Position numbers and translations under genes: made by a program. From Desulfurivibrionaceae bacterium (GTDB lineage: Bacteria > Desulfobacterota > Desulfobulbia > Desulfobulbales > VMSU01): 64,000 nt of DNA. Positions within the stretch are counted from its first letter, which is position 1. Every line of letters begins with the position of its first letter. This document shows, in pieces, positions 2,153 through 32,094 of the stretch. Location of the stretch: positions 62,001 to 126,000 of the forward strand of contig JAQYVV010000005.1 of NCBI GenBank assembly GCA_030145275.1, read 5' to 3'. Under the pieces are notes generated by a model. It was given only the letters and a program-made list of their open reading frames with translations. It made no database searches and had not been told where the DNA came from.

Positions 2153-2160
2153 GTTTTTTT

Positions 2161-3237: not shown

Positions 3238-3294
3238 AGGATAAAATGTTTATGGGGAGTATAGTTCTGTTTTAAACGAAGAAGAGGGTTAATG

Positions 3295-3402
3295 GTAAAT
3301 GTTTGACAACGCTTCAGATGTGTTCGATCAGGTTGGCGAAGCGTAGTAGTTCTACGTGAGTCAGCCTGATCGGGCACAGCTGGAGTGTTGCCGAATATTT
3401 AC
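3295..3402 (+). repeat. R1 interrupted palindrome, copy a (108 bp)
   Basis: The outer arms GTAAATGTTTGACAACGCTTC and its inverted partner end in ATATTTAC, with an invariant centre containing CGTAG-TAGTT-CTACG. It directly abuts the dxr stop codon (3403). Most arm mismatches are G-T or T-G pairs when read on the plus strand. Confidence 0.9.
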
Positions 3403-4635: not shown

Positions 4636-4643
4636 TGGACAAA

Positions 4644-9728: not shown

Positions 9729-10319
9729 ATGCAAAAATCGGCAGTTTTTTTAGATCGAGATGGGACCATCAACGAACAGATGGGCTATATTAATCATATA
9801 AGTCGTTTTGTCCTTCTTCCTGGAGCGGCGCAGGCTATTAAAATCCTTAACGATAATAATGTTCAGGTTGTGGTGACCACAAATCAGTCCGGGCTTGCCA
9901 GGGGATATTTTCCTGAGTCACTGCTTGATGATGTGCATGCTAAAATGCATACTCTTTTGGCTGCAGAAGGTGCCAAAGTGGATGGAATTTATGTTTGCCC
10001 CCACCATCCTGAGGCAAAAGAAGAGAGATTTTTGGCAAACTGCAACTGTCGCAAGCCAAAACCCGGACTTTTTTTACAGGCTGCGGAAGAACTTAATATA
10101 GATCTTTCAAAATCGTTTGTTGTTGGTGACCGCTGGTCGGACTTAAAGGCAGCCGCCAACTGCGATGCTACCGGAATACTGGTTTTAACTGGATATGGCA
10201 GGGGGGATTATGATTATATTGGCCCCAAGCAAGAAATTCAGCCCAAATATGTTGCCGAAGATCTTATGGATGCTGTTCAATGGATTTTAAGTTCTTCGCC
10301 TGGGGTGTACGCTCCTTAA
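9729..10319 (+). CDS. gmhB: D-glycero-D-manno-heptose 1,7-bisphosphate 7-phosphatase
   Basis: HAD-family phosphatase of ADP-heptose synthesis for the LPS inner core. 'FLDRDGTIN' carries the nucleophile and acid Asp; 'TNQSGLARGYF' is motif II. The zinc-loop pattern 'CPHHPEA...CNCRKPKPG' separates GmhB from histidinol phosphatase-only relatives. ATG 9729 gives 196 residues, the usual size. The track start at 9660 would add 23 hydrophobic residues and is not preferred. No clear Shine-Dalgarno is visible for either start. Confidence 0.85.
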   Translation: MQKSAVFLDRDGTINEQMGYINHISRFVLLPGAAQAIKILNDNNVQVVVTTNQSGLARGYFPESLLDDVHAKMHTLLAAEGAKVDGIYVCPHHPEAKEERFLANCNCRKPKPGLFLQAAEELNIDLSKSFVVGDRWSDLKAAANCDATGILVLTGYGRGDYDYIGPKQEIQPKYVAEDLMDAVQWILSSSPGVYAP

Positions 10320-10348
10320 TAAATATTTTAAAATGTCCAATTAGCTCG

Positions 10349-14176: not shown

Positions 14177-15382
14177 ATGATTGAAAATTTTAGTAGGTTT
14201 TGCTTAAAAAGTTTGGGCGTCTCAAAAAGAAGTCTGGGATGGGTGGTAGCCATATCTGCAATAATTGGCATAACCCCAGCAATCTCCTTTGCTGTCTCAG
14301 GGTCATGTGCTGGTTGTCATACCATGCATGACAGTCAGAACGGTACTGACGATTTAAGTAATGATGCTACTGCCAATACGACTGGTGCTCAAGGAAATCT
14401 CCTGACCCAAAATTGTGTCGGTTGTCATACCTTGGCTACTGGTAATACTCAAGATACAGTTGATTTAAGCCTCTCAACTGAGGCGCCTTATGTCGATCAA
14501 TCAACAACAGTGCCAACCTTTCAGACTGGTGCCGCAAGCACCTTGGCTGGAGGTAGCTTCTATTGGGTAGGTGAAGGCGCATTTGGTGACTCTTATGGGC
14601 ATAATGTAGAAGGTGTCGATGCTATGGACGTTGCTTTGGACTATGATCCTCCTGGGTTTGATATTGCTGCTGGCTTTATGCCTGACGGCACCAATGGTCG
14701 CAACAATGAAATACTTGCTTGGTCCGATCAACTTACCTGCGCTGGGGTTAATGGTTGTCATGGATACGCCACAGATTCTGGGGTCACCGGGGCACATCAT
14801 AACAATAACGCAATAGGTACCATAACCACAGCAGCTAGCGCCGATAATGTTGGAGATCATTATCGCTTTCTTGAAGGCATTAAGGGTGTTGAAGAAGCCG
14901 AATGGGAATTTAATGTTGCCGCCACTCCCCTTGCTGTAAACGTCTATCATGGCAATGACCGTGATGCAGGCAATTCAATTGCTGATACTACCAAAGACAC
15001 AATTTCCTTCCTCTGTGCTGAATGTCACGGTGACTTCCATTCAGATGATGGTGGCGCTGGCGTCAGTACAACAGGCGCTAGTCCTTGGATAAGACATCCA
15101 ATAGACATAGCTTTGGCTGATAAGGCCAGTGAATATGCTAACTACGCAGATTATGATTATACAGTGCCAGTAGCCTTTGATACAGGCAATGCTGCTTATG
15201 ATACCCCAGGCGAAATCACGGCTGCAGGTGTGGTTCAAACCGGATTGGCCACTGTGACCTGTCTATCCTGTCATGTAGCACATGGTGGTCCATATCCAGA
15301 CCTGCTTCGCTGGGATTATACTGCCATAGTTGCTGGTTCTGATTATAATCTTGGTTGTAACGTCTGTCACAACACTAAATAG
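14177..15382 (+). CDS. Secreted multihaem c-type cytochrome, paralogue 1
   Basis: 401 residues with an N-terminal signal sequence ending near 'ISFAVSG'. There are five canonical haem sites (CAGCH, CVGCH, CAECH, CLSCH, CNVCH) and one non-canonical CAGVNGCH (CX5CH), probably six haems. Candidate distal His ligands are numerous and shared with the paralogue at 26847: HTMH, GHNVEG, HHNN, HYRFL, YHG, FHS, IRHPID and HVAH. The gene has the locus's best Shine-Dalgarno, a sigma54 promoter candidate and its own terminator, which suggests separately controlled, high expression. From memory, the size, 'CHTMH' start and neighbours (NHL propellers, prolyl isomerase) recall OmcE/OmcS-type polymerising cytochromes; filament formation is not shown by the sequence. 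Confidence 0.85.
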   Translation: MIENFSRFCLKSLGVSKRSLGWVVAISAIIGITPAISFAVSGSCAGCHTMHDSQNGTDDLSNDATANTTGAQGNLLTQNCVGCHTLATGNTQDTVDLSLSTEAPYVDQSTTVPTFQTGAASTLAGGSFYWVGEGAFGDSYGHNVEGVDAMDVALDYDPPGFDIAAGFMPDGTNGRNNEILAWSDQLTCAGVNGCHGYATDSGVTGAHHNNNAIGTITTAASADNVGDHYRFLEGIKGVEEAEWEFNVAATPLAVNVYHGNDRDAGNSIADTTKDTISFLCAECHGDFHSDDGGAGVSTTGASPWIRHPIDIALADKASEYANYADYDYTVPVAFDTGNAAYDTPGEITAAGVVQTGLATVTCLSCHVAHGGPYPDLLRWDYTAIVAGSDYNLGCNVCHNTK

Positions 15383-15580: not shown

Positions 15581-17662
15581 ATGATGATTCTGTTATCCAG
15601 AAAGTCATTTATCTGCTATTCCGCAGCCTGTTTGCTGTACTTTCTTAATTCTGAACAGGGCTTTTGTTCCTCTCTGCCTCTGACCGCCAATTGGAATTAT
15701 CAAAGTGGCAGTGATGCTGATGCGCAGTTTAATGAGAGTTACTCGGCCTCGCTCTCAAAATCCGTTGCTCTTAGCAATCAGGTTGCCCTTGGTGCCAATA
15801 TGCGATACGGACGCACCCGGAGTAAGGATTCAGGCCGTGAAATTATTAACATCAACCCCAACCTGCGCTATAGTTACGATGATGATTATAGCCAATTGGC
15901 TCTCTCGGTAGAGGCCAATGAAATTATTAACCCAGGTAGCGATAATGCCAATATCAGCGATCGCACCTGGCGGGCCAAATGGAACAATGCTTGGGTGTCC
16001 AGCGGCCTTTGGCCTGAACTCTCCCTTAGTTTTAGCAAAAACTACTCCTTTGACCATGCCCATCCAAAGACCAGCGATAACGTCTCCGACCAGCTCTCCT
16101 CTAAAGTGGCTTGGAGTCGTGACCTGGGCAGCTTGCAGCTTACCTATAGTTCAAGCGAAAATAAAAATATCATAGCCCTCTCCAGCTCGGTTAATGAGAA
16201 CTACGGCGTCCAGGTTAATACCTCCAAGCCTTTCTGGCAAAATAAGGCCCTGGTAAGTTTTTCCCAGAAATACTCCCATTCAGCTAATACCAATGAGGTA
16301 ACGGTTACCGAAAATACAGGCGTGGCCCATCGTGAGCTGAGTATATCCCAGGCCTACGCCAAGGAGACTGATGAGTTGAACATCCATGACCTGACTCTAT
16401 CTTCGCTGCCTGCCCTGTTGAATAATGATCGAAGCGATGCCGCGCTAAGGGTAAATAATCCTGCGCAACCTGTTAATATAGCATTGAAAACCGATTTTGA
16501 AATAATTGATCTGCTCTATCTTTATACTGATGTCGAACTTGCCATGGCAGTTGCGGATGATTTTATTTTTGACCTCTATATCAGTCCTAATGGTATAACC
16601 TGGACTCGGCAAAACACTGCCATTGCCTACAGCTATAATGGCATTGAAAAACGCTATGAATTTCAATTAAACGGGGTGCAGGAGGAGTATATCAAGCTGG
16701 TGGCGGTTGCCGATCCGGCTATTGAGGTAATCTTTACAGAAATTGAGGCTTACCTCTCTTATATTGGCAGCGTCGGCACAGTTTTTACCGATTCGACCTC
16801 CAGCGCCCAGTGGAATACCATGCTCTCCTTAAGTTTACAGATCACCCCGGATTTAAGTCTGAGCAGCTCCGGCAGTTATGATAAAAGGGAATCGTCCCAG
16901 GGGCCTGATAATATCAGGAATAACCTTTCCTCCACTGCCAGCTGGGTGGTCAGTGATTCTGTTTCCTCTAGTCTCAGCTTTAATCAGTCCTCGGCGCAGC
17001 GCGGCAGCGGTCCGGAGGCTCTCAGTCGCAATTACTCCCTCAGTGTCGGACTTGCCCCGATACCCACCATTTCTAGCAGCTTTAATACCAGCTATTCTGA
17101 GAATTTCCTGGACGGTGAGAAACTTTCCACCAATACCAGCTACTCTTTCTCCGCTAGAGGGATAATATACCCGGATCTGAACGCCGGGCTTAACTGTTCC
17201 TATTCTGAGTCAGAAGATCTACTGCAGGGTTCGACATCGACAAGTCTTGGCAGCACTGCTAATATTACCGCAAGGCTCTTTCCTGATCTACAGCTCAACT
17301 GGTCCGGGGGCTTGACTCAGTCCAATAGCGCTTCAGCATCATACCGTTCAGGTCTGGGCTGGAGCTGGAGGCCGTCTTCTCTGCTCTCCATGAGTGGTAG
17401 TTTTTCCCAATCCTGGGCTGAGACCTCGACGGCCGATATGAGTTATTCCATGACCGTGGCGACCAGCAGCAAGACGAGAGTTGGCCTTAGCTTCAATAAA
17501 CCTCTGAAGCCTGCAGGCGATTCGAGTTACGGGGCTAATATGTCCTGGAACATCAGCAGCCATCTCTCTTTGCAACTGAATGGCTCTTACGTTGATTCTC
17601 TTAGCGCTGTGGATACCTGGTCATTCGGGGCCAGATTGAATGCCAGATATTCTATATTGTAA
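15581..17662 (+). CDS. Predicted outer-membrane beta-barrel protein with internal discoidin-like domain
   Basis: 693 residues; a signal sequence ends around 'EQGFCSS'. The body is rich in Ser/Asn with alternating hydrophobic beta-strands ('SLSFNQSSAQRG', 'YSLSVGL', 'NTSYSFSARG') and ends in 'ARLNARYSIL', typical of large outer-membrane barrels. Around residues 290-390 a region ('DLYISPNGITWTRQN...EEYIKLVAVAD') looks like a discoidin/F5-8C-type fold inserted between strands. Its place with a 42-haem lipoprotein suggests the porin of a porin-cytochrome conduit, analogous in role to MtrB but not recognisably homologous. No haem motif is present. Function is inferred from context. Confidence 0.65.
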   Translation: MMILLSRKSFICYSAACLLYFLNSEQGFCSSLPLTANWNYQSGSDADAQFNESYSASLSKSVALSNQVALGANMRYGRTRSKDSGREIININPNLRYSYDDDYSQLALSVEANEIINPGSDNANISDRTWRAKWNNAWVSSGLWPELSLSFSKNYSFDHAHPKTSDNVSDQLSSKVAWSRDLGSLQLTYSSSENKNIIALSSSVNENYGVQVNTSKPFWQNKALVSFSQKYSHSANTNEVTVTENTGVAHRELSISQAYAKETDELNIHDLTLSSLPALLNNDRSDAALRVNNPAQPVNIALKTDFEIIDLLYLYTDVELAMAVADDFIFDLYISPNGITWTRQNTAIAYSYNGIEKRYEFQLNGVQEEYIKLVAVADPAIEVIFTEIEAYLSYIGSVGTVFTDSTSSAQWNTMLSLSLQITPDLSLSSSGSYDKRESSQGPDNIRNNLSSTASWVVSDSVSSSLSFNQSSAQRGSGPEALSRNYSLSVGLAPIPTISSSFNTSYSENFLDGEKLSTNTSYSFSARGIIYPDLNAGLNCSYSESEDLLQGSTSTSLGSTANITARLFPDLQLNWSGGLTQSNSASASYRSGLGWSWRPSSLLSMSGSFSQSWAETSTADMSYSMTVATSSKTRVGLSFNKPLKPAGDSSYGANMSWNISSHLSLQLNGSYVDSLSAVDTWSFGARLNARYSIL

Positions 17663-17707: not shown

Positions 17708-18310
17708 ATGATGGAGCAAAAGATGCGCACAGGATCGCTGCTTTTTATTGTATGCTGCCTATTGACCCTGCCTGGCTGTATGTCTACTTGGTCTGATAAG
17801 GATTATTTTCTCCGTGATGATGTTGACATGAGCTTCATCTCGCGTATTGCAGTGTTAGATTTTGACGATAATGATCAAGGAGATGATGTTGCTGAACAGG
17901 TACGGGATCTAGTAACTACGCAGATCCTGGCCCGGGGGCTTTTTGATGTGATCGATAAGGGGTTGGTGAAAGGTGTTGTTATTGAAGAGTCGCCGGCCCG
18001 CGGCCGTTCGTATGTTGATGCTGCGTCTATTAAACGGATTGGCCAGCGTCTTGATGTGCAGGCCCTGTTGCTTGGCACCTTAGATTACTCAGGCGACGGG
18101 CGCAAGGGTGCCAGCACCTTTCCTGAACTTTCCATGACTTTACGTTTAATTGATGCAAATTCCGGGATGATTTTTTGGCAGGCCAGTGGACGGGCAAGTG
18201 GTGACTCCCTTTGGCGCCGAATTCTTGGGGTTTCGGCAGAGGACAGATACAGGGTTGCTATGCGTCTGATTGGGAATTTACTCTCCACCATCCCTGGGCA
18301 AGGGCAATAG
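17708..18310 (+). CDS. CsgG/TolB-like lipoprotein 1
   Basis: 200 residues with a type II signal peptide (lipobox LPGC at about residue 24). The remainder resembles the CsgG/FlgO/LpoB-type alpha-beta domain: 'RIAVLDFDDN', 'LVTTQILARGLFDVID', 'LDVQALLLGTLDYSG' and 'LRLIDANSGMIFWQASG'. A Shine-Dalgarno AAGGAG lies 8 bases upstream. It is the first of three consecutive proteins with this kind of domain between the barrel and the haem proteins. A role as an outer-membrane export or assembly factor is inference. Confidence 0.75.
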   Translation: MMEQKMRTGSLLFIVCCLLTLPGCMSTWSDKDYFLRDDVDMSFISRIAVLDFDDNDQGDDVAEQVRDLVTTQILARGLFDVIDKGLVKGVVIEESPARGRSYVDAASIKRIGQRLDVQALLLGTLDYSGDGRKGASTFPELSMTLRLIDANSGMIFWQASGRASGDSLWRRILGVSAEDRYRVAMRLIGNLLSTIPGQGQ

Positions 18311-18827: not shown

Positions 18828-18943
18828 TTAGTGCCTTATAACTTAAATTCTGTCACAAAAAACGAGAATTCCAAAAAAGAACAATGTTCCCAATATGTTG
18901 CAGACCACTGTTAAGGCACTTATTTCCGGTTTATCCGGATTAG
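18828..18943 (+). repeat. R2 palindromic element, copy b
   Basis: TTAGTGCCTTATAACTTAAATT...CACTGTTAAGGCACTTATTTCCGG with a terminal CCGG hairpin. It ends 20 bases before the start of the next gene and contains the uninterrupted AAAAAACGAGAATTCC site that is filled in copy d. Confidence 0.88.
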
Positions 18944-18963
18944 TTTTTGAGAGGGTTAATATT

Positions 18964-20586
18964 ATGAAGAGAATAGTCTCAATATTACAGATAATATTTA
19001 TTCTGCAGGTTGCCCCGGTTGGTGCTGCAACTATTGCTCTCTTTCCCTTTGAGGACTTCAGCACCAACTCTGGAATTGGTGCGAAACTTATCACTGAAAT
19101 TGTCTCCTCTCAGGTTGAGTTGGCTGGCCATGTTGTTGTCTGCCCTGCGGAGTTGAATGATTTTATGGGCCGGCACCGTATTCGTCAATATGGTGTGATT
19201 AGCAGCGAACAGGCCCAACTTGCCCAGAAGGAACTCGGGATTGATTATATTTTGCTTGGTTCTGTTATGCTTAAGGAGGAGCGTCAAACAACTGCAACTG
19301 CATCAATTTTTACCCTGGTGAGGGCTGCGGATGCCCATGTGGTCTGGAGTTATGTAGATAGTTATAGTCTGGCAGATCACCAGGCGATGTTTAATCTTTC
19401 CGGCCCTTCTAATCTGGAAGATCTCTGGACCCTGCTTGCCCTTGATGCCTTTGCTGAGTTGCCTGAAATCATGCTTGCTAACCTGCTTCCTGAACAAGAA
19501 AGCGGTAACATTATCGTCGAACATAGTGAGCCTAATCTTCAGATTGACTTTGCTGCGTTTCATCCTCGCCATGTAAAACCTGGTGAAAACGTCAATTGTT
19601 CTGTGCGCTTTCGGACTTTAAATATCAGTGAAGAGGGGGAGCCCACTGTTTTTATCAAGGTCGGCAGCCGGGTGCATACGGCCCAGACTGATGACGGTTT
19701 TGAGTATGAGGTTTCCTGGGTTGCAACTGAAGGTAATCCCGGCCCGCCTTTCAAGTTGGCGATGAATGACCCTGACCTCTTCTACCGTGGCATGTGGGAC
19801 AGTGAAAATCTTGAGGCTGGCTACCCTGTCAATATTGTTGTGGAATGGCCCTCCGGTAGACATGATGAGTTGTATATCGGCTCTTATATTGTTGACAGCA
19901 CTCCTCCTGACCTAAAACTTATAGCCAGCGCCAAGGAGTATAATAACAGGAAAATATTTCGGCAGCGGCTCCCCTTGACCGTACGCTGGGGAAGACCTGA
20001 AAAAGTCGATCGCTGGAAATTAGCGGTATATGATCAGGAGAATAAACAGGTTATCAGCACTAAAGGCACGGCTGAGCCGCCTGCCTCTTTTCTCTGGAAG
20101 GGGACAAACAGCAGTAATAAAAAGGCGGAAGAGGGTCTCTATTCTGTTGTTCTGCAGGTTTGGGATCTGGCAGGAAATAGAACTGTTTCCACCGAAGAAG
20201 TCTACTATCTGCCGGAACTTCCTGAGGTTGAATTGACTCCGGTTGTGTCTCCTGAAGATGAGAGTATACAATTGGCTTTATTCCTTGATCATGAGCCCCT
20301 GGTACCATTGAAGTATTGGCGGCTGGAGGTTTGGGCCTCAAATAATGATTTGCTAAGTTTTCACGAGGGTACCAATTTTCCGGAGAGTATCACCTTAGCC
20401 GCTCTTGATTCTATTAACGTTGACGATGATATTGATGCAAAATTAATGGTACTCGATGAGCTTGGTGGAGAAATGGTGACCAGCTTTAAGGGGTTGTACG
20501 CTATGGCTGCGGCTCTTCAGGAAATGGATCAGACGCAGGATGATACTCAAAAATCGTCTGGGTCCGGCTGGGATGAGGGCTTTTGA
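18964..20586 (+). CDS. Secreted TolB/CsgG-like protein with FlgD-type Ig domain
   Basis: ATG 18964 is chosen: GAGAGGG stands 10 bases upstream and a cleavable signal sequence follows ('IIFILQVAPVGAATIALFPF'). This gives 540 residues. The N-terminal domain (about 22-190) has the CsgG/FlgT-like pattern 'IALFPFEDFS', 'GIDYILLGSVM' and 'VRAADAHVVWSYVDSY'. The central region looks beta-rich. A FlgD-like Ig domain lies near residues 350-430 ('EEGLYSVVLQVWDLAGNRT'). Function is unknown. It is coupled to the following lipoprotein gene (4-base overlap). Confidence 0.7.
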   Translation: MKRIVSILQIIFILQVAPVGAATIALFPFEDFSTNSGIGAKLITEIVSSQVELAGHVVVCPAELNDFMGRHRIRQYGVISSEQAQLAQKELGIDYILLGSVMLKEERQTTATASIFTLVRAADAHVVWSYVDSYSLADHQAMFNLSGPSNLEDLWTLLALDAFAELPEIMLANLLPEQESGNIIVEHSEPNLQIDFAAFHPRHVKPGENVNCSVRFRTLNISEEGEPTVFIKVGSRVHTAQTDDGFEYEVSWVATEGNPGPPFKLAMNDPDLFYRGMWDSENLEAGYPVNIVVEWPSGRHDELYIGSYIVDSTPPDLKLIASAKEYNNRKIFRQRLPLTVRWGRPEKVDRWKLAVYDQENKQVISTKGTAEPPASFLWKGTNSSNKKAEEGLYSVVLQVWDLAGNRTVSTEEVYYLPELPEVELTPVVSPEDESIQLALFLDHEPLVPLKYWRLEVWASNNDLLSFHEGTNFPESITLAALDSINVDDDIDAKLMVLDELGGEMVTSFKGLYAMAAALQEMDQTQDDTQKSSGSGWDEGF

Positions 20587-21248
20587 TTGTGGTATTTAGC
20601 TCGCCCTTTATTGCTCTCGCCTGGCGCGGGGTTGCCTTGACCTTCAGGAGTGCTGAGGCCCAATCTTTTATTGTCTGCTGTACTCTCATTTTTTTACAGG
20701 GGTGTTCTTTAGGACAGCAAGAGCCGCTCTATCAGCAGCTGTCGGAAACCCCTGGTCAACCACTTTGCCGTCTTGTCGTTCTTCCTTTTGCAAATCATAC
20801 CGAGTCTAGCCAGGCAGGGGCTGTTGTTACGAAAATATTTGCCTCTTCGTTGCAAAGAGCCGGCTATTCAGTGGCCTTGGAGGGGAATGTCCGGCAGCTT
20901 TACCAGCAGCTTCGGATTCGCATTGATGATGAGGTGACTCAAGAACATTATCGGATCATTGCTGCTCAGTTGCAGGCGGATGCCTTGGTTATTGGTAAAG
21001 TTGTAGAGTTTCAGGAAAATGTTGAGAAGGGCCGACTTGACCCTACCGTAGCTTTTGAGGTTGGTTTAATGGAGACGGGTTCACAGCGCCGTCTTTTTAC
21101 AACCTATTTTAAAAAAACTGGAAAAAACTATCGAAAGGTTTTACATTTTGGACTTATTAATACACTCTTCAGATTGACAAGAATCATGTCTGATGATGTT
21201 ATTGAACAATGGATAAACAAAGGTTTACATACATGCGCACCTTCATAA
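20583..21248 (+). CDS. CsgG/LpoB-like lipoprotein 2
   Basis: The start is uncertain. TTG 20583 overlaps the previous stop; GTG 20589 or TTG 20634-20638 would give a more normal lipoprotein signal ending at lipobox LQGC (about residue 41 of the track protein). The mature part has the same alpha-beta pattern as its neighbours ('CRLVVLPFANHT', 'FASSLQRAGYSVALEGNV', 'LQADALVIGKVVEFQ'). It overlaps the next gene by 16 bases. Probably an outer-membrane lipoprotein working with the two other CsgG-like proteins. Confidence 0.65.
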   Translation: MIVVFSSPFIALAWRGVALTFRSAEAQSFIVCCTLIFLQGCSLGQQEPLYQQLSETPGQPLCRLVVLPFANHTESSQAGAVVTKIFASSLQRAGYSVALEGNVRQLYQQLRIRIDDEVTQEHYRIIAAQLQADALVIGKVVEFQENVEKGRLDPTVAFEVGLMETGSQRRLFTTYFKKTGKNYRKVLHFGLINTLFRLTRIMSDDVIEQWINKGLHTCAPS

Positions 21249-22855
21249 CAGCAGTAGTTTTCTCTTTTTTTTGTTTGTATTCTTCTTCCGGATCGGCTGC
21301 CAATTGGCCGTGGCAGTCAACCGCCCTGCTGACGCTTGATGAGGTCGAATATAGTGGGGAGGAGTTTGAGCAGTGGTGGAAATGGTGGAATGAGGAACCC
21401 CATGCGGCTCCTGATCTTGAGCTTTTCATTGATTGGCAGTTAAAAGTTAAAGAGGCTGAAAGGATGGAACTATTTACTACTGCCCAGGTGCGGAAGAAAG
21501 TCGATACTTTTTTGAAGGCGCGGACTCTGCTTTTATTACAAGACGAAGAGGTACGAAGCAAAGTAATTTATTCTGAAGCTGAACTGCGGCAAGAGTATGA
21601 AACATCATACCTGCCGGTATGGCATCTTGGCTTACTTGCCTTTTCGACTCAGGAGGCTGCTGCCTCAGCCCTGCAAAACCTGAATAATGGTCAAACAGAT
21701 CTTGAATCTTTGGTGGCAAGCGCTCATGAAGAGAAGACCTTGGTGCGCTATGAAACAAAAATGAAACGGCCTGCTAACTCTTCTTCTGCCTGGCGGGGTA
21801 TTCTTGACCCCTTACAGGAACATCAGGCTCTTGCCCTGGGGGGGGAAGCGGCCCCCTATAAAATTATTTACCTTATTAAAAAACAGGGCGAAGAGGGTGA
21901 GGATTTTCAGCAATTTACTGATATAATCAAGAGTAATAAACGCAAACAAAAGGAGCGGGAATTGACCTTTCAACTGGTTGAGAGGCTGAAAGAAAAATAT
22001 AATGTGAGAGTTGATGAGGAGATCTACAAGCGCCTTGAAAGTGAAGAAGCTGAATCTCCTGAAAATGAAGATGTTGTTCTTTACTCTGATAAAATTAATG
22101 TTACCGTTGGCCAGTTTATGGCAGGTTTTAAAAAGACCAGCAAGGGGCAGAGAGAGGCCGCCAGCCGCAGCCAGTCTGCTGGGAATATTTCCATGCGTTG
22201 GTACCTCAATAGCTTAATATCAAGTAGTGTGGTCAGCTGGGAAAGCCTTGACCGCCACTATGAAGAAAGGCCTCCCTTTAGTTGGATATTTCGTTTTTAT
22301 CGGGAGAATGTTATGACTAAGGCCTATATCGCCATGATGCAGAGTTCTATTGGACTTCCGACGCAAGAGGAGATAGAGGCATATTATCAAGAAAAGGTTG
22401 AACAGTACAGGTTGCCAGGAGAGGTGCGGGTTAAACTGTTAAGCGCTGCACCAGATCTCCTTCGCAAGGTAAGGCTGCAGACCCTGGCCGGGGAAGGGTT
22501 GGCTAAAGTGGTAAGCGGCCTTGAGGGTGTAACCCTGAAATCTGTGACTTTCCAAGAAGAGAGCCTGCCTGCTGCGATTAAGGAAAATATAAAGTTCTTA
22601 TCCGCACAGGAGCTAAGCCCATCCTTTAGTTATGAAGGTAAAGAAACCATGGCGCAGCTGCTCGGCAAGTCCGAAGAACAGGTGCCCACCCTTGCGCATA
22701 TTCAGGAACGTATTAGCAAAGATCTCCATGAACAGAAAAAAAAGGAGGCAATGGATAGCCTGCATGAAAAATTGCGTCAGCACTCGACAATTGCCATAAA
22801 CAAACCACTCTGGTTAAGTATTACTAAGAAATTACAGGAAGAAAATGAGCAATAA
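21233..22855 (+). CDS. Parvulin/SurA-like periplasmic prolyl isomerase-chaperone
   Basis: ATG 21233 follows AAAGG at a good distance and starts a signal sequence ('FITAVVFSFFCLYSSSGSA'); the track start 21209 is less likely. The protein has 540 residues, highly charged and helical. SurA-like N-terminal helices include 'TAQVRKKVDTFLKARTLLLLQDEEV', followed by a parvulin-type region ('VWHLGLLAFSTQEAAASAL...LVASAHEEK') and a second such segment with 'TQEEIEAYYQEKVEQYRLPGEVRV'. It likely helps fold the barrel or cytochromes in the periplasm. The stop overlaps the start of the 42-haem cytochrome gene by 11 bases, a strong coupling signal. Confidence 0.7.
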   Translation: MRTFITAVVFSFFCLYSSSGSAANWPWQSTALLTLDEVEYSGEEFEQWWKWWNEEPHAAPDLELFIDWQLKVKEAERMELFTTAQVRKKVDTFLKARTLLLLQDEEVRSKVIYSEAELRQEYETSYLPVWHLGLLAFSTQEAAASALQNLNNGQTDLESLVASAHEEKTLVRYETKMKRPANSSSAWRGILDPLQEHQALALGGEAAPYKIIYLIKKQGEEGEDFQQFTDIIKSNKRKQKERELTFQLVERLKEKYNVRVDEEIYKRLESEEAESPENEDVVLYSDKINVTVGQFMAGFKKTSKGQREAASRSQSAGNISMRWYLNSLISSSVVSWESLDRHYEERPPFSWIFRFYRENVMTKAYIAMMQSSIGLPTQEEIEAYYQEKVEQYRLPGEVRVKLLSAAPDLLRKVRLQTLAGEGLAKVVSGLEGVTLKSVTFQEESLPAAIKENIKFLSAQELSPSFSYEGKETMAQLLGKSEEQVPTLAHIQERISKDLHEQKKKEAMDSLHEKLRQHSTIAINKPLWLSITKKLQEENEQ

Positions 22856-25800
22856 ATACTCTAAAAAACGAATTTTATTTATTATTAATTCTCTGCTTAT
22901 AATTGTCCTTTATTTTACTTTACAGGCATGTGTCTCGGGCAATACCCCACAGAAAAACACCCAGAGAAGACAGGCCTGTACAGACTGTCATGCTGATTGG
23001 GCAGAGTCTTTTCAACAAGGTAACACCCATAAGCCGGTTGAGGCTGGCAAGTGCCGGACTTGTCATCTGCCCCATGGCCTTATTGCCGTAGTCCAGTTGA
23101 CCTCTCCTGCACCCCGACTCTGTTTTGCCTGTCACAAAGATATTCCTGAAAGTATTGAGAAAAAAGTTGTTCATCAACCGGCCAAAAATGGCAAATGTCT
23201 AGAGTGCCATAATTCTCATAATTCAACCAATGAGCACCTTCTGAAAAATAGTGAGAGAGAACTCTGCTTTCAATGTCACGAACAAGACCGTTACAGCAAG
23301 AAAAATGTTCATAAGCCGGTGGCCGAAAAATGTATAACCTGCCATGCCCCGCATGGTTCCGACTATCCGGCTTTAACTGATAAAAAACTTGCAGAGCTTT
23401 GCGCTCAATGTCATGACTTTAAAGCTGCTTCATTTGTTGCTAAGCATTATGGTAAAAAAGTAACCGATGGATGCCTGACCTGCCATGACCCGCATAGTTC
23501 TGAGAGTGAAGGGCTGTTGAAGCCATTTATTCACCCATCGATTGAGGGCGGCGGTTGTGATAGCTGTCATGATAAAATGGAGATGCGGGGCGGCAAGAGT
23601 GCAGAGCAGATGTCTTCGCTCTGCGTCAGTTGTCACCCTTCCCATGTAGGCGGTTTTCTGCACGAGCCCTATGTGAACGGCCAATGCCTTGAATGTCACG
23701 CTGTCCACGCCAGCGATTACCTGGCCATTGCGGCCCGGCCTCTCCAGCAGCTCTGTACTGAATGTCATGACCAGCACACAGGCATACAAAAAGGATCTTT
23801 GCACGAACCTGCCCAAAAGGGTGATTGTCTCTCCTGTCATCAGAGCCATTGGTCAGAGAATGCACAATTGCTCACCGTGTCCGGTAACGACCTCTGTTTT
23901 AAATGCCATGACCAGGCTGATTTTACAGGCAAAGGTAGGAAACGTCTCCACGAGCCGGTCGGCCAGGGAGAATGTCTTGATTGTCATGAAGCACATGCTG
24001 CTCCACAAAAGAGTCTGCTTAACGAAAAACAGGGCAAGCTCTGTTTCTCCTGCCATGATCAGACCGCCGGTGAGATCTACCACTCCTCTGTGCATCGTCC
24101 CTTTGCCGAAGGAAATTGCAGCAGCTGTCACCAGCCGCACCAATCTTCTGCGCCCCATTTTCTGAAGGATTCTGTAAGTCTTAACAAGCTGTGTTTGCAA
24201 TGTCACGCCCAAATAGAGGAGAAACTTAAAGAGACACCGCATCAGCCGGTCGCAAAAGGCAAGTGTACTAACTGCCATGACTCCCATGCTGCTAACCGCA
24301 AAGCCCTATTGCTTGAGAATCCTGGCAAGCTTTGTCTGAGCTGCCATGATGACATGAAATTTGCGGCAGAGTCAAAAGGCAGGATTATTCATGAACCAAT
24401 CAGGGAGGGTAATTGTACCGTCTGTCATGATCCGCATGGTACGGTCAAACCACAAAACCTAAAAAAAATGGAACCAGGTCTATGCCTTGATTGCCATGCG
24501 GAAATATCTCAATTCTGGAGCACTGGCTCAGCTCACGAACCAGCTTCGCAGCAATGTACAACCTGCCATCTGTCACACTCTGGAGATAATGAAGCCTTGT
24601 TACGCAAAGAAGCAGCGTCTATTTGTGGAGATTGCCATGAGAGTGGAGCGGAGCTACAGGCCACTCATAAAGGGATGAAACTTTCTCCGCTAGGATGCGT
24701 GAACTGCCATGACCCTCATGGCAGCGCTAATAATAAGCTTCTGCGTCCTGTCTTGCATGAACCTTTTAATTCCGCTGATTGTCTTTCATGTCATGATAGC
24801 CAGGGAGCTGTTACCACCGGGCCGAAATGTTTTGACTGCCACGAAAAAGATGACGGCAAGGTTGTGCACGCACCATACCGGCAAAACAAATGTGCTGACT
24901 GTCATCAGACCCATGCCGCTGATTATCCAGGCCTTTTAGTCAACTCGGGCGCCAGTCTATGCGCAACTTGTCATGCTGATATCGCCAAAAAAAGTAGCGC
25001 TCAAAAGCTTCATAAGCCTTTTCAGGAGGGACGCTGTCAGACCTGCCATGCCAGCCATACTTCAGATCATAAGAACCTCCTCCATGATTCTTTGTCCACC
25101 GCCTGTATGGAGTGTCATACTGATTTGCCCCAGGGGGTGAAGAATCTTCATTCCCCTTTTGCCAAAGGTGAATGTTTAACTTGTCATTTAGCACATGGCG
25201 GGTCCAATGATAACCTTCTGGTGGAGAAAAGTGATAATCTTTGCTATCAGTGTCATCAAAAGGACAGGGTTATCGGGCAGCACAAATCTCCGGTCCCGCT
25301 TACCGGTAATTGTGTGAGTTGCCATGATCCTCATGGCAGCAATCAGAAGGCTATCATCCGTGAGTTCATCCATGAGCCATTTAGTGATGATTGCAGTTAT
25401 TGCCACCAGTCTGGTCAGGAAATCACCAATGAGTTATGTCTCCAATGCCATGAACGGGTCAGGGATGATTATTTGTTGCCCCATAGTCATTTGACCATGG
25501 TTGATAAGAAAGAAGGCTGCCTGACTTGCCATACCCCTCATGCCGGAAAGACAGCGGCAATGCTCAGAGATGAGGTAGACCAGGTCTGTCTAGAATGTCA
25601 TCAGCAGTCTCTTGACCGCTATGACGGGAAAAAACATGTGCATCAGGATATGGACAACTGTACGGACTGTCACGCTGGCCATGGTTCCAGTGCCCCGGCC
25701 ATGCTGAAAGGGGATGGCAGCACCACCTGTACATCATGCCATAAGAGCCATGATTCTTTTACCCACCCTATAGGAGAAGGGGTTTTGGATCATCGCAATC

Positions 25801-25910
25801 GGCAGATGCTCACTTGCTTGACCTGTCATGATCCAAAGGGGACAGATTATGAATATAACCTGCTGCTGGATCATAGTAAGGAACTTTGTGTTCAGTGTCA
25901 TCGTTATTAA
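22845..25910 (+). CDS. 42-haem lipoprotein c-type cytochrome
   Basis: 1021 residues with 42 CxxCH motifs counted by eye, one per about 24 residues, running from residue 44 to the last codons (CVQCHRY). A type II signal peptide ends at lipobox LQAC (residue 29), so the mature protein should be lipid-anchored, likely in the outer membrane. The body is about 21 units of roughly 48 residues of the form H-x-P-(x3)-G-x-C-x-x-C-H-x-x-H ... L-C-x-x-C-H, the doubled CXXCH pattern in which the extra His can serve as a distal ligand. There is no non-haem domain. It probably acts as an electron wire or storage rod across or outside the envelope. It is translationally coupled to the chaperone gene upstream. 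Confidence 0.93.
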   Translation: MSNKYSKKRILFIINSLLIIVLYFTLQACVSGNTPQKNTQRRQACTDCHADWAESFQQGNTHKPVEAGKCRTCHLPHGLIAVVQLTSPAPRLCFACHKDIPESIEKKVVHQPAKNGKCLECHNSHNSTNEHLLKNSERELCFQCHEQDRYSKKNVHKPVAEKCITCHAPHGSDYPALTDKKLAELCAQCHDFKAASFVAKHYGKKVTDGCLTCHDPHSSESEGLLKPFIHPSIEGGGCDSCHDKMEMRGGKSAEQMSSLCVSCHPSHVGGFLHEPYVNGQCLECHAVHASDYLAIAARPLQQLCTECHDQHTGIQKGSLHEPAQKGDCLSCHQSHWSENAQLLTVSGNDLCFKCHDQADFTGKGRKRLHEPVGQGECLDCHEAHAAPQKSLLNEKQGKLCFSCHDQTAGEIYHSSVHRPFAEGNCSSCHQPHQSSAPHFLKDSVSLNKLCLQCHAQIEEKLKETPHQPVAKGKCTNCHDSHAANRKALLLENPGKLCLSCHDDMKFAAESKGRIIHEPIREGNCTVCHDPHGTVKPQNLKKMEPGLCLDCHAEISQFWSTGSAHEPASQQCTTCHLSHSGDNEALLRKEAASICGDCHESGAELQATHKGMKLSPLGCVNCHDPHGSANNKLLRPVLHEPFNSADCLSCHDSQGAVTTGPKCFDCHEKDDGKVVHAPYRQNKCADCHQTHAADYPGLLVNSGASLCATCHADIAKKSSAQKLHKPFQEGRCQTCHASHTSDHKNLLHDSLSTACMECHTDLPQGVKNLHSPFAKGECLTCHLAHGGSNDNLLVEKSDNLCYQCHQKDRVIGQHKSPVPLTGNCVSCHDPHGSNQKAIIREFIHEPFSDDCSYCHQSGQEITNELCLQCHERVRDDYLLPHSHLTMVDKKEGCLTCHTPHAGKTAAMLRDEVDQVCLECHQQSLDRYDGKKHVHQDMDNCTDCHAGHGSSAPAMLKGDGSTTCTSCHKSHDSFTHPIGEGVLDHRNRQMLTCLTCHDPKGTDYEYNLLLDHSKELCVQCHRY

Positions 25911-25959: not shown

Positions 25960-26838
25960 ATGTCTCGTCTATTTTATAGGATAAGTAAATATATTTTCCT
26001 TGTTGCTTTTTTGATTGTGGCAACAGACACTTCTGTCTGGGCCTGGAACCATCATTTATCTTTATATTCTGCCACCGGTGACCCCATGCGGGTGCCAGCC
26101 GGTCTTTTTATTGATACAGAAAAAGAGCGCTATTATATCATTGATACCGGAAATAATCGGTTGGTCTCTTTTGATAAGGATGGCAATTATTTACAGGATT
26201 TTAATGCAAACGGGAAATTGACAGCACCCTTTGACCTGGTAAAGGATTCTCTTGGAAGGCTGTGTGTGATCGAGAAGGGGAAGAACACTCTAACCACAAT
26301 TGATCTTAAAAACAAAGAGGTTACACCACATACTCTTACGTATAATGGAAGCACAATCATTCCGCATCGTCTGGCTCTAGTAGATGGTACTATTCTAGTA
26401 CTAGACAAGAATAAGGGGGGGGTAGTTGTCCTGGATAAGGATTTACAGGTCAGATCGTACATTCCCTGCCCGGATAACTCTGAGGGGTTTGTTGATTTTG
26501 TAACCATTGCTGGTGAAATATGGGGCTTAGACCGTGGAAGTAATTCAGTATATCGTTATTCAATCAATGGTAAATTATTGGAAAAGGTGCAGTTAGATAC
26601 TTCCCCTCAGCATCCTGTTGCTCTCGCAATTTCCCCGGATGAACATTTGTTTATCCTCGATCGACATGCCAGGGCCGTTTATCAGTTCTCCAGAACTGGC
26701 CGTCTTGATAAAAAATTTCTGGAACAAGGTTTTACAGTTGGCAAACTCTTCTACCCAATTCTGCTTCGTTTTGACCCTTGGGGGCGTTTATGTGTTGTGG
26801 ATGAAGGAAATGGACGGGTAGAGATATATAATAGGTGA
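25960..26838 (+). CDS. Secreted NHL-repeat beta-propeller protein
   Basis: ATG 25960 is preferred over the track start at 25828, because GGAG lies 5 bases upstream and a signal sequence follows ('IFLVAFLIVATDTSVWAW'). The 292-residue protein is almost entirely NHL-type blades: 'VPAGLFIDTEKERYYIIDTGNNRL', 'APFDLVKDSLGRLCVIEKGKN', 'HPVALAISPDEHLFILDRHAR' and 'YPILLRFDPWGRLCVVDEGNGR'. No catalytic site is seen. It sits between the giant cytochrome and cytochrome paralogue 2, a recurrent neighbour type for multihaem cytochromes. Confidence 0.85.
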   Translation: MSRLFYRISKYIFLVAFLIVATDTSVWAWNHHLSLYSATGDPMRVPAGLFIDTEKERYYIIDTGNNRLVSFDKDGNYLQDFNANGKLTAPFDLVKDSLGRLCVIEKGKNTLTTIDLKNKEVTPHTLTYNGSTIIPHRLALVDGTILVLDKNKGGVVVLDKDLQVRSYIPCPDNSEGFVDFVTIAGEIWGLDRGSNSVYRYSINGKLLEKVQLDTSPQHPVALAISPDEHLFILDRHARAVYQFSRTGRLDKKFLEQGFTVGKLFYPILLRFDPWGRLCVVDEGNGRVEIYNR

Positions 26839-26846
26839 GGCGAAAC

Positions 26847-27992
26847 ATGTATTACATGCGAACAATGTGCTACATAGTTATTGCGACAATTATTGTTATT
26901 TTTGTACCAAACGCTGTTTTTGCTGTTACTGGTACCTGCTCATCCTGTCACACAATGCATAACAGCCAGGATGGTGTTGAAGTTAGTTATGGGCTTGACG
27001 CTGAAGATACCGGTCCTAATGTGGGTTTACTGATAAGTGATTGTGTGGGCTGCCACTCTTCTAGTGCAGGCAATCAAGTACTTGGAAACACCCCTATTGT
27101 TAACACAACGACAACCATTCCTGTTTTTAACGACACCGCTTTGGCCGGAGGAGATTTTTATTGGGTCGTTAATAGTGGTGACAATTATGGCCATAATGTT
27201 GATGGGATAGTTGGCGTAGATAGTGCTGTTAATGTAGGGATGACACCTCCTGGCTGGTCTTCTGCTGCTGCTTTTGGTTATGCTGGTACCGATGCAACCC
27301 GTAGAGCAGAAGCAGGGAGCTGGGGTGAACAATTAACTTGTGATGGGGTTTATGGCTGTCATGGTGATGTTGTTGATGGTGTTTGGGGTTCGCACCACAA
27401 CAATGCCGGAGGCCTTCGTGAATTTGCTGCCGTGGATGACGAACACCAGGGGGAGCACTATAGATTTCTGCATGGCATCAATGGTTATGAGGACCCGAAA
27501 TGGCAGCATAATGTTGCTGATGATGGCAACTTTAATGTCTATCATGGTGAGATTCGTTCCGGCTCGGATCTCGTTGGCAGCAGAGATACAATCTCATTTC
27601 TGTGTGCCCAGTGTCATGGCAATTTTCACTCCGGCACTGGTACCGACGAGGGGATTGCTGACTCTGGTTTTGCCAGCCCCTGGATACGCCATCCGGTTGA
27701 TGTTAAACTATATAAATTAGATACAGAGTATGCCTCATATTCAGCCTCAACCTACATCTATGGGGTGCCGGTTGCTTTTGATGTAACGAATAATGTAAGT
27801 TATGACAGTACAGATGACATAAACGACCCCACTGACATCCAAATTGGCTTGGCAACCGTTACCTGTCTCTCTTGTCATGTCGCCCATGCCAGCCCCAATC
27901 ATGACCTGTTGCGCTGGAACTACAGGGGGTGGCCGGGTAACAGCGTCGAAAATGACTATGGCTGTCACACCTGCCATTCATCAAAAAATTAA
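26847..27992 (+). CDS. Secreted multihaem c-type cytochrome, paralogue 2
   Basis: ATG 26847 is chosen (AGGTGAGG 6 bases upstream) over GTG 26835; the protein has 381 residues. The signal sequence ends near 'NAVFAVTG'. The architecture matches the cytochrome at 14177: CSSCH, CVGCH, CDGVYGCH (CX5CH), CAQCH, CLSCH and CHTCH, together with the shared HTMHNSQ, GHNVDG, HHNN, HYRFLHGI, NVYHG, IRHPVD and HVAH blocks. The two clearly arose by duplication. Unlike paralogue 1 it is tightly joined to upstream genes (8 bases past the NHL stop), so it is likely co-expressed with the 42-haem protein. Confidence 0.88.
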   Translation: MYYMRTMCYIVIATIIVIFVPNAVFAVTGTCSSCHTMHNSQDGVEVSYGLDAEDTGPNVGLLISDCVGCHSSSAGNQVLGNTPIVNTTTTIPVFNDTALAGGDFYWVVNSGDNYGHNVDGIVGVDSAVNVGMTPPGWSSAAAFGYAGTDATRRAEAGSWGEQLTCDGVYGCHGDVVDGVWGSHHNNAGGLREFAAVDDEHQGEHYRFLHGINGYEDPKWQHNVADDGNFNVYHGEIRSGSDLVGSRDTISFLCAQCHGNFHSGTGTDEGIADSGFASPWIRHPVDVKLYKLDTEYASYSASTYIYGVPVAFDVTNNVSYDSTDDINDPTDIQIGLATVTCLSCHVAHASPNHDLLRWNYRGWPGNSVENDYGCHTCHSSKN

Positions 27993-28072: not shown

Positions 28073-29500
28073 ATGAACCAGCACAAATATGCATATGTAC
28101 TTTTTCTAGTTTTTTTCCTCTCTTTTGTTGTCTCCGGATGTGTTAATAGCAGCCCTGGTGGTGGATTTATAAAGCGGGATATCGTTGAAAAACCACCTCT
28201 TGCCAACCAATCTTTACTATCCTTTTTCTGTGACTTTACTGAGCAGCCCCGTCAGCAACTAAACATTCAGATAAGTGATATGGAAATTCACACCGGAGAA
28301 CAATGGATCTCTGTACTTCCTTCCGTTACATCTATTTCGTCAGAGCATATTTCTACTGGACAAATTCTATTGACCCGGGCAAGCCTGCCGGCCGGGACGT
28401 ACACTAAGCTTCGCTTTACCTATGAAGAGACGGCCGCACAAAAAGAAGAAAATGGTCAGATGAAAGGGAATAAAATTACAAAAGAAATTTTATTTACCGC
28501 ACCATTGCAGCTTTTGGCACAAGAAAGTCAGTGTCTTTTTTTAGATTGGAAGTTGAGCCCGTCGCAATCCAAGCAACAACAGTTTGAACCATTAATAACC
28601 GTATTTCCGCAGGAGATTTCCTTAAGTGTTGATCTGGCATTTGTGACTTGCCCGGATATTGATACCATATATATTATTCGAACTGATACCAATAAAGTAA
28701 TCGGGGCTTGGGGGATACCTGGTAAACCGTCTGATTTTGTCTTAAATTATTCTACAGATGTACTGTATGTGCTTTCCCAAAAAAATAAATCAATTGTCAT
28801 TGTTGAAATTTCATCGGGGAGGGTAGTAGATTCTTTTTTTATTCCCATGGGTACAGACCCCTCTTTTATGGAGGTTAGTCCCGATTTTCAATACGCCTAT
28901 GTTCTGGACCAGAGAAACTTCCGGCTGATAAAAATTCAACTGTCAGATGGCAGCCTCGCAGGTACTTTTAACTTCGATTATCCTGTGGAATACTTATCTT
29001 TGCTTGAGGGTGATCACCGCCTTGCTGTCTCATCTTCAAGTGTTAATGAAGTTTATTTATTGGACAAAGAGACCCTGCAGAAAGTTCAAACAATTCAGGT
29101 TGGCAGAAAAATCTCCAGTATGGTTTTGGTAAACAACCAGCTTCTCATTGCAGAGAAGGGCGCAACCACATTACTTGCTTATAATATTCACACATCAGTA
29201 GAAAAAAGACCTGTTGTTGGTTTGGGGCCTGAGAGATTTCTTCAGGTTAACAATAGATTATATGTTTCAGCCTCAAAGGCTGGACGAATTGATGTACTAG
29301 ATCCCGATGAACTGTACCCGATAAAAACGATTCGTATTGGCGGGGCTCCTGTGGAAATGGCAGCTTCTACTAATCGGAGATGGCTATATGTTGCTGATGT
29401 GCAGAGAGGTGGCCTGGCTGTTCTTGACCTCTCTTCTTATCGGTTAGAGAAAAGGATAGATCTAGCCGCCGTTCCTCATTCAATTGCTGTTACTCAGTAA
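28073..29500 (+). CDS. Lipoprotein with DUF4382-like domain and YncE-type beta-propeller
   Basis: 475 residues with lipobox VSGC near residue 22. The N-terminal domain ('NIQISDMEIHTGEQWISVLP...TRASLPAGTYTKLRFTYEE') resembles DUF4382. From about residue 190 there is a seven-bladed-type propeller ('VIGAWGIPGKPSDFVLNYSTDVLYVLS', 'MGTDPSFMEVSPDFQYAYVLD', 'VEMAASTNRRWLYVADVQRGGLAVLDL'), as in YncE-like surface proteins. Probably the last gene of the cytochrome locus; a 467-base gap follows. Binding or structural role only; no enzyme motif is seen. Confidence 0.75.
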   Translation: MNQHKYAYVLFLVFFLSFVVSGCVNSSPGGGFIKRDIVEKPPLANQSLLSFFCDFTEQPRQQLNIQISDMEIHTGEQWISVLPSVTSISSEHISTGQILLTRASLPAGTYTKLRFTYEETAAQKEENGQMKGNKITKEILFTAPLQLLAQESQCLFLDWKLSPSQSKQQQFEPLITVFPQEISLSVDLAFVTCPDIDTIYIIRTDTNKVIGAWGIPGKPSDFVLNYSTDVLYVLSQKNKSIVIVEISSGRVVDSFFIPMGTDPSFMEVSPDFQYAYVLDQRNFRLIKIQLSDGSLAGTFNFDYPVEYLSLLEGDHRLAVSSSSVNEVYLLDKETLQKVQTIQVGRKISSMVLVNNQLLIAEKGATTLLAYNIHTSVEKRPVVGLGPERFLQVNNRLYVSASKAGRIDVLDPDELYPIKTIRIGGAPVEMAASTNRRWLYVADVQRGGLAVLDLSSYRLEKRIDLAAVPHSIAVTQ

Positions 29501-29967: not shown

Positions 29968-32094
29968 ATGACTAATAAACGAGAAGAGAGCAAAGATCAG
30001 AAGCTTGTCTTAGTAGTTGATGACGATAAGATATTAAGACAGATTCTCTGTCTCTCCATGTCAAAATCAGGGTTTAAGGTCGCCGAAGCAGGCACCGGTG
30101 AAGAGGCAATAGAAAAATTCAAGGAACTAGGAGCAGATGCCATGTTGCTTGATGTACTTCTGCCTGGAATAGATGGTTTTCAAGTTTGTAAAAGAATACG
30201 AAAAATGCCGGGCGGCGCCTCACTGCCAATAATTATGATCACTGGTCAGGACGATTATGAGTCAATAAATAGTGCTTTTGAAGCCGGGGCAACTGATTTT
30301 GCAGCAAAACCATTAAACCCGCTTTTGCTTTGTTATAGGATTCGCTACATTATTAGAGCAAACCAGGCATTTGATGATCTGGGCATTAGTCAGTTGAAAC
30401 TTGCGGCGGCCCAGGAAATGGCTAATCTGAGCAACTGGGAGTTGGATCTCACCTCAAATATTATTGAATGGAATGCAAATGTTTGTAATATTTTTGGTGT
30501 CACAGAGCAGGGATACAGAGGGGACCTACAATTCTTTTTAGATATTGTCCATAAAGAAGATCTTGAAAATGTCAGAAAAAAAATTGATCAATCTGTTCGT
30601 CATAATAGAGATATTAATTTTGAGCATCGTATTATTCTTAAGGGAAAAAACGTAAAAATAATCAAGCAGGAAGGAAAAATTTTATATGACAGTGCAGGTA
30701 TCCCTGTGCGGATATTATTTACCAGCCAGGATGTTACCGAAAAGAAAAATACAGAGGATGAAGTTCGTTTCCTCGCATTTTATGATCGTCTAACCGAAAT
30801 GCCGAACCGTATCTTGTTTAAAGAACACCTTGCCAAGGCCCTTTTTGACGCCAAAAGGGATAGGAGTTATATCGCCGTTCTCTTTATTGATATTGATAAT
30901 TTTAGATTGATCAATGACACCTTTGGCAGAAAGACAGGTGACGCTATTCTTAAGATTGTAGCTGATCGTTTAAAAATTTGCCTTCGGGACAATGATACTG
31001 CTGCTAAAATGGATGAATATGACCTTACGGCCAGGTTCGGTGCTGATGAATTTGGCATTATACTCGAAAATTTAAATGATTTATCCGACTCAGCTATAGT
31101 TTGTCGGAGGATCATTGAAATGGTGAATGAAAAAATCACAGTTGATGATAATGATATCTTTCTGCACTCAAGAATTGGAGTGAGTGTTTTTCCTGACGAC
31201 GGAAATACGGTAGAAGACTTATTGAGAAATGCTGATTCCGCACTATCACGGGTCAAAGAACTGGAAAAAGACTCATATCAATTTTATACGGCTGATTTAA
31301 ACAGCAGAGCCTTTGCGCGCTTTGCTCTTGAAACCAGGCTAAGACAAGCCATTGTGAACAATGAATTTTATCTGCTATATCAACCACAGGTAGATTTGGA
31401 AACACTGAAAGTGACAGGTGTTGAAGCACTTATTCGATGGCTCCATCCTGATATGGGTATTGTGTCTCCAATGGATTTTATTCCGGTGGCCGAGGATACA
31501 GGATTGATAATTCCCATTGGTGAATGGGTCATGCGGGAGGCATTGATCCAGTGTAAAAAATGGGCCGATAGTGGCTTTAATATAAAAATGTCAGTCAACC
31601 TTTCCGCTGTCCAATTTCGCGACCCTAAACTTCTAGAATTTGTCAAAACAACCATTGTTGAGGAAGCGGTAGATACCAATTTTATTGAATTTGAAATCAC
31701 CGAAAGTATGCTGATGGATGATGTGGAGGGCAGTATCGAACGGATGGAAAAGTTTAAGGAATTAGGCGTTCGCCTATCCATTGACGATTTTGGCACGGGC
31801 TACTCTTCCCTCAATTATCTTAAACGGTTTCCTGTGGATGCGCTCAAAGTAGATCGGTCGTTTGTAAGTGATATTACAGTCAGTGAAGATGATGCCATGA
31901 TCGTGACCGCGATAGTGACCCTGGCAAAGAATCTGAACCTTGAGGTTATAGCTGAAGGAATTGAAATGAAAGAACACCTTTCTTTCCTCAATAATCTTGG
32001 CTGCGATCATGCTCAAGGGTATTTGATTAGCAGACCGGTTTCAGCAGAAGAGGTTGAAAGTTTTTTTGGTGATTGGACTGTCGATGAAATTTAA
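29968..32094 (+). CDS. Response regulator with PAS, GGDEF-like and EAL domains
   Basis: 708 residues, no membrane segment. The receiver domain (about 10-130) is intact ('VVDDD', phospho-acceptor in 'MLLDVLLPG', 'KPLNP'). A PAS/PAC region follows (150-265), then a GGDEF-like domain whose active-site motif reads RFGADEF. The EAL domain (about 455-700) keeps 'EALIRW', 'EITES', 'IDDFGTGYSSL', 'AEGIE' and 'AQGYLISRP', so c-di-GMP phosphodiesterase activity is likely. Diguanylate cyclase activity is uncertain because of the Gly-to-Ala change. No kinase is adjacent. Possibly linked to surface or matrix control near the cytochrome locus, which is inference. Confidence 0.9.
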   Translation: MTNKREESKDQKLVLVVDDDKILRQILCLSMSKSGFKVAEAGTGEEAIEKFKELGADAMLLDVLLPGIDGFQVCKRIRKMPGGASLPIIMITGQDDYESINSAFEAGATDFAAKPLNPLLLCYRIRYIIRANQAFDDLGISQLKLAAAQEMANLSNWELDLTSNIIEWNANVCNIFGVTEQGYRGDLQFFLDIVHKEDLENVRKKIDQSVRHNRDINFEHRIILKGKNVKIIKQEGKILYDSAGIPVRILFTSQDVTEKKNTEDEVRFLAFYDRLTEMPNRILFKEHLAKALFDAKRDRSYIAVLFIDIDNFRLINDTFGRKTGDAILKIVADRLKICLRDNDTAAKMDEYDLTARFGADEFGIILENLNDLSDSAIVCRRIIEMVNEKITVDDNDIFLHSRIGVSVFPDDGNTVEDLLRNADSALSRVKELEKDSYQFYTADLNSRAFARFALETRLRQAIVNNEFYLLYQPQVDLETLKVTGVEALIRWLHPDMGIVSPMDFIPVAEDTGLIIPIGEWVMREALIQCKKWADSGFNIKMSVNLSAVQFRDPKLLEFVKTTIVEEAVDTNFIEFEITESMLMDDVEGSIERMEKFKELGVRLSIDDFGTGYSSLNYLKRFPVDALKVDRSFVSDITVSEDDAMIVTAIVTLAKNLNLEVIAEGIEMKEHLSFLNNLGCDHAQGYLISRPVSAEEVESFFGDWTVDEI

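Follow-up and report, generated by a model that had tools for sequence, protein, structure and literature searches.

The 42 haem sites found in one predicted lipoprotein of the window (the whole stretch of DNA analysed, 64,000 nucleotides) are the product of a gene fusion. The protein joins two cytochromes that are usually separate, a 26-haem protein, which is usually a lipoprotein, and an adjacent secreted 16-haem protein. In the family to which the window belongs both are encoded by a single ORF, while in the rest of the order two adjacent genes match residues 1-655 and 659-1020 of the fused protein. Residues 1-655 align with the 26-haem proteins over their full length, mostly at 34-42% identity, and residues 659-1020 with the 16-haem proteins at 37-43% identity. 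Fusion of two genes is thus the immediate reason for the presence of 42 haems in one protein. The kind of operon that carries the gene was already known; what is new is the fusion, together with the constancy of the haem number. Judging from the sequences, we think it likely, with some reserve, that the protein is an outer-membrane-anchored, MtrA-like relay with its 26-haem and 16-haem parts end to end, serving extracellular electron transfer. Its features are the following:

22845..25910, + strand: 42-haem c-type cytochrome lipoprotein, fusion of a 26-haem part (residues ~1-655) and a 16-haem part (residues ~659-1021)
22845..22931, + strand: lipoprotein signal peptide with an LQA/C lipobox, Cys29 being the predicted lipidated residue
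22977..24794, + strand: 26-haem part, haems 1-26, modules 1-9 and 10-26
24795..24827, + strand: fusion linker, from haem 26 (CLSCH) to haem 27 (CFDCH)
24828..25907, + strand: 16-haem part, haems 27-42, modules 27-35 and 36-42

The ORF is a real coding sequence of 1021 residues that starts with ATG and shares 11 bases at its start with the upstream peptidyl-prolyl isomerase gene. Counting confirmed the original prediction of 42 CxxCH motifs, against 0.65 expected from the composition of the protein and a maximum of four in 1000 composition shuffles. The haem motifs follow each other at a mean spacing of 23.7 residues (SD 2.6). The N-terminus (MSNKYSKKRILFIINSLLIIVLYFTLQAC/VSG) is compatible with a lipoprotein signal peptide. 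The lipobox that had been proposed is plausible: it reads LQA/C, with Q, a less usual residue, at position -2 and C29 invariant in an alignment of nine homologues (alignment A4). As had also been claimed, the protein contains no other domain, as far as Pfam and NCBIfam can tell: both returned multihaem cytochrome families only, the NCBIfam cut-offs (MtrA/DmsE-type, TIGR03508) being exceeded by summing many stretches of the protein.

Further information was obtained by comparing the protein with known structures. In a profile search of the PDB, the nearest entry was MtrA (6r2q_A, E=4.9e-29; this chain is MtrA although its PDB chain name is mislabelled), and the weaker matches included NrfB. A relationship with MtrA, a cytochrome with an elongated haem chain, is thus supported at the sequence level. 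The window protein shares with MtrA/DmsE-type decahaem cytochromes (TIGR03508; 6r2q) the paired-CxxCH repeat, with the haems in register. It differs from them in having 42 haems, against ten haems in a single compact gene. Among 35 orthologues, conservation reaches 90% or more at 42 columns of proximal His and at 40 columns of non-proximal His, so that essentially all haems are probably bis-His. AlphaFold2, run on an alignment of three rows that lacked depth, gave a pLDDT of 28. The MtrCAB complex has 20 bis-His haems spanning 185 Å (PMC7198977). Extrapolating from this figure, the 42-haem chain would measure about 390-400 Å (~40 nm) if straight, a length that is an extrapolation only, and the ends of its modules may act as kinks.

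The genes around the cytochrome, all on the same strand, form a conserved operon:

14177..15382, + strand: OmcS-homologous cytochrome with five CxxCH and one conserved CX5CH
15581..17662, + strand: predicted outer-membrane beta-barrel (from amphipathic alternation), operon-conserved, candidate porin partner
17708..18310, + strand: LpoB/TolB_N-like lipoprotein (weak Pfam match)
18895..20586, + strand: secreted protein with a FlgD_ig domain, operon-conserved
20583..21248, + strand: GNA1162/TolB_N-like lipoprotein (weak match)
21209..22855, + strand: PpiC-type peptidyl-prolyl isomerase (Rotamase_2, PF13145), overlapping the start of the cytochrome gene
25960..26838, + strand: NHL/six-bladed beta-propeller protein (ORF listed from 25828; a start near 25960 is likelier)
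26835..27992, + strand: second OmcS-homologous cytochrome with five CxxCH and one CX5CH
28073..29500, + strand: YncE-like beta-propeller lipoprotein, conserved downstream

This gene order (OmcS-like, barrel, LpoB-like, FlgD_ig, GNA1162-like, isomerase, 26-haem/16-haem, NHL, OmcS-like, YncE-like) is kept in many loci, both split and fused, and the isomerase of the window has its homologue at the corresponding position of the split loci. The core of the operon was described by Skennerton et al. in 2017 in SEEP-SRB1, Desulfuromonadales and Desulfurivibrio, and consists of an isomerase, a 26-haem cytochrome, a 16-haem cytochrome and a six-bladed propeller (PMC5539420). The 26-haem cytochrome of Geobacter is GSU2495 (PMC12977616). 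The window has the same cytochromes, with the isomerase directly upstream and the propeller directly downstream. However, it is a fused variant with one 42-haem ORF in place of two separate cytochrome genes. Besides the four core genes named in that work, further conserved genes are found here: the two OmcS-like cytochromes, the barrel, and the LpoB-like, FlgD_ig, GNA1162-like and YncE-like genes. As a side observation, the two lipoproteins with weak LpoB/TolB_N/GNA1162-like matches (17708-18310 and 20583-21248) could have a role in cytochrome assembly or secretion.

The homology of the two flanking cytochromes (14177 and 26835) to OmcS was missed by single-sequence search and was seen with a profile only (E=1.5e-23, profile positions 32-344 on OmcS 8-348). 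OmcS, the nanowire cytochrome (6ef8), is thus related to the flanking proteins and not to the 42-haem protein itself. The flanking proteins differ from OmcS by an invariant CX5CH (of CAGxxGCH type) that aligns at OmcS haem 3 in all 15 family members aligned. By its sequence, this motif would be an unusual site of haem attachment.

The 693-residue protein encoded at 15581 shows a beta-strand amphipathic alternation 5.3 SD above shuffles. It had no Pfam, PHROG or PDB match, and AlphaFold2 on the single sequence gave a pLDDT of 30. The gene was found in 19 of 148 genomes of the phylum, and all 19 also carry the 26-haem/16-haem cytochromes. Skennerton et al. were unable to find a porin, for which the predicted barrel is a good candidate. 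We dropped the proposal that it is an MtrB homologue: the barrel profile has no sequence match in the PDB, and kinship to MtrB is therefore not detectable.

We envisage the following mechanism. Export, haem attachment and lipid anchoring of the 42-haem protein are predicted from its motifs. The 42 haems would constitute one MtrA/NrfB-like bis-His relay, as suggested by homology and by the conserved His. The 26-haem and 16-haem parts would abut end to end, which is supported by two fusions with the same junction. Given the composition of the operon, the relay may link periplasmic carriers, or the operon barrel, with external OmcS-like cytochromes. The isomerase would aid the folding of the proline-rich repeats, and both the direction of electron flow and the partner may differ by organism.

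An alternative function is that of an electron capacitor or buffer in the periplasm, which would store or distribute charge while sitting on the inner side of the outer membrane or spanning the periplasm, outside any outer-membrane conduit. The very dense packing of the protein (24.3 residues per haem) fits such a role, and Skennerton et al. inferred a periplasmic site for the four core proteins (PMC5539420). Likewise, a clear lipobox is found in about two thirds of the split 26-haem homologues, and about one third are without it. However, a fixed haem count and a fixed ligand pattern would be unexpected if capacity alone mattered, and the operon includes two OmcS homologues and a predicted barrel. 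For these reasons we consider a capacitor rather unlikely. The 42-haem protein could also polymerise into an OmcS-like extracellular nanowire. Its genetic linkage to OmcS homologues points in this direction, as does a weak match to 7tfs, a filament cytochrome. Nevertheless, a predicted lipid anchor and a sequence far closer to MtrA than to filament cytochromes make polymerisation improbable.

The proposal of a membrane-anchored relay in extracellular electron transfer can be set beside expression data from Desulfurivibrio alkaliphilus. Strain AHT2 (G013) belongs to the same taxonomic order as the window (Desulfobulbales in GTDB), and its genome holds two copies of the 26-haem/16-haem operon, in agreement with Skennerton et al. 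The 26-haem and 16-haem genes lie at 459,551-461,497 and 458,346-459,575 in the first copy, and at 897,702-899,738 and 896,515-897,702 in the second. The first copy starts with DA_402, which is homologous to the OmcS-like gene at 14177; the qPCR primers published for DA_402 map exactly where expected. DA_402, the most prominent multihaem gene, reportedly rises more than 100-fold in expression when sulphide is oxidised with ferrihydrite (PMC12545173). DA_756 and DA_765 are OmcS-like genes also reported as induced, and from gene order we infer that they are the OmcS-like genes of the second operon copy. On the other hand, the homologues in Geobacter, Anaeromyxobacter and Desulfuromonas were reported not to be expressed during metal respiration (Skennerton et al., PMC5539420), an argument for electron uptake or some other function, in those species at least. 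The genome of the window has dsrA.

The number of haems is nearly invariant. Across the phylum, 64 complete split pairs retain the 26+16 arrangement; in one sample of 35 of these pairs, six have one motif widened to CX3-4CH. Exactly 42 CxxCH are present in 63 of 71 full-length sets and 41 in the remaining eight, of which at least seven contain one wider motif. In all 63 orthologues with exactly 42 motifs, CHxxH is fixed at haems 2, 4, 6, 8, at haems 11, 13 and so on to 25, at haems 28, 30, 32, 34, and at haems 37 and 39. In the same 63, haems 9, 26 and 35 are non-CHxxH terminators with an upstream His. As these haems end modules, the chain is organised as 9 + 17 + 9 + 7. The original prediction described about 21 uniform paired units. 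The modular chain (1-9, 10-26, 27-35, 36-42) replaces this description. The regular HxPxxxGxCxxCHxxH unit fared in part: the exact motif occurs ten times only, while the paired-CxxCH repeats are real and CHxxH occurs 21 times.

The same prediction had attributed the repeats to growth by internal duplication and had suggested a self-comparison of the units. The comparison confirmed that the repeats are real and gave the best self-similarity at an offset of 26 haems, with blocks 1-9 and 27-35 alike. The 26-haem and 16-haem proteins thus begin with related nonahaem blocks. That the repeats descend from duplication holds, but the duplication is ancient. In 850 of 1218 comparisons, the best match of a unit was its positional counterpart in another genome (mean identity 0.316 versus 0.104). 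The count of units in homologues, another check that had been proposed, revealed neither growth nor variation, 26+16=42 being constant across the phylum. We conclude, as far as sequences can show it, that the duplication is old and the haem count now frozen. That duplication is still under way, leaving the haem number free to vary among homologues, is very improbable despite the real repeats and the similarity of the nonahaem blocks, because units are orthologous by position and 26+16 is held in the complete split pairs; for the 26-haem/16-haem family the idea is contradicted.

The history of the fusion could be followed in other genomes. We searched ten genomes of the window's family, an uncultured family of sulphur-cycling bacteria. 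Six have an intact 42-haem ORF, a seventh (G005) has the fused gene across two contigs with overlapping ends, and the remaining three have fragments or nothing. Within the family, at least seven genomes, from four genera, thus carry the fused form, which has a single origin on the tree (support 97/93). Another 42-haem ORF with the same junction lies in a distant clade (L094, positions 1476-4728 on the reading strand, genome G206); G206 additionally carries a split 26+16 pair (L096). The exact place of L094 is uncertain, as it forms a long branch and the tree was a quick one; however, well-supported branches force two changes, so that the same fusion arose at least twice, independently. An artefact of assembly or reading frame joining two genes can be rejected: although the window's assembly is fragmented and 84% complete, intact fused ORFs recur in five further genomes of two other genera, at 41-43% identity, and both the overlapping contigs of G005 (a fourth genus) and the independent L094 repeat the fusion.

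The split relatives indicate how the genes were joined. Their 26-haem protein ends a few residues past its last CxxCH, and the first CxxCH of their 16-haem protein comes soon after its signal peptide. The 26-haem stop codon and the 16-haem signal peptide fall at the position of the fusion linker. The alignment of split and fused proteins contains a read-through row for L048, which keeps the repeats from drawing the 16-haem rows to the N-terminus. In the fusions, a linker of roughly 11-20 residues replaces the short 26-haem tail and the 16-haem signal peptide. In four loci (L084, L095, L097, L098) the split genes already share a reading frame.

The C-terminus of the 26-haem protein is joined to the N-terminus of the 16-haem protein without loss of haems, which suggests, by a Rosetta-stone inference, that both ends are adjacent in the split pair. 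In this respect, the fusions found in nature reveal how the two proteins are paired at their ends, and the end-to-end docking of the separate proteins becomes a simple, testable question. That the haem number is invariant across the phylum points to a role of length or of endpoint geometry. It is possible, although we rather doubt it, that in all these bacteria the split proteins dock head to tail into an outer-membrane-anchored 42-haem wire of fixed length, ending at the barrel, which had not been recognised before, and at OmcS-like filaments, and that 42 was selected as a length. The hosts of the 26-haem/16-haem operon include partners of methane-oxidising archaea, relatives of Geobacter and an iron-oxide-breathing sulphide oxidiser, and its function and architecture have been a question since 2017. 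For expression and structural studies, the fused protein requires one gene instead of two. Moreover, the co-occurring barrel and OmcS-like genes may encode the outer-membrane passage that was missing and the partner outside the cell.

Other giant or conduit-forming cytochromes are known in the Desulfobacterota. The OetABI-type conduit of syntrophic sulphate reducers likewise places a porin and a cytochrome lipoprotein near OmcS-like genes (Murali et al. 2023, PMC10553843). The barrel of the window may or may not be OetI, and the 26-haem protein may or may not be OetB. Our literature search for a 42-haem multihaem cytochrome found none. Nevertheless, 42 haems are no record, as an 86-haem cytochrome has been reported in Desulfuromonas acetexigens (PMC12133095), another giant multihaem protein of this phylum.

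Additional genes lie next to the operon. Just upstream are a SPOR/NHL protein (10280-12418) and a sigma-54-type response regulator (12437-13810), possibly the regulator of the operon. The latter shares 59% identity with the regulators beside the fused operons in L029 and L031. Sites for a sigma-54 (-24/-12) promoter upstream of the operon were not above chance, and none was clear. Just downstream, positions 29968-32094 encode a response regulator with PAS, GGDEF and EAL domains.
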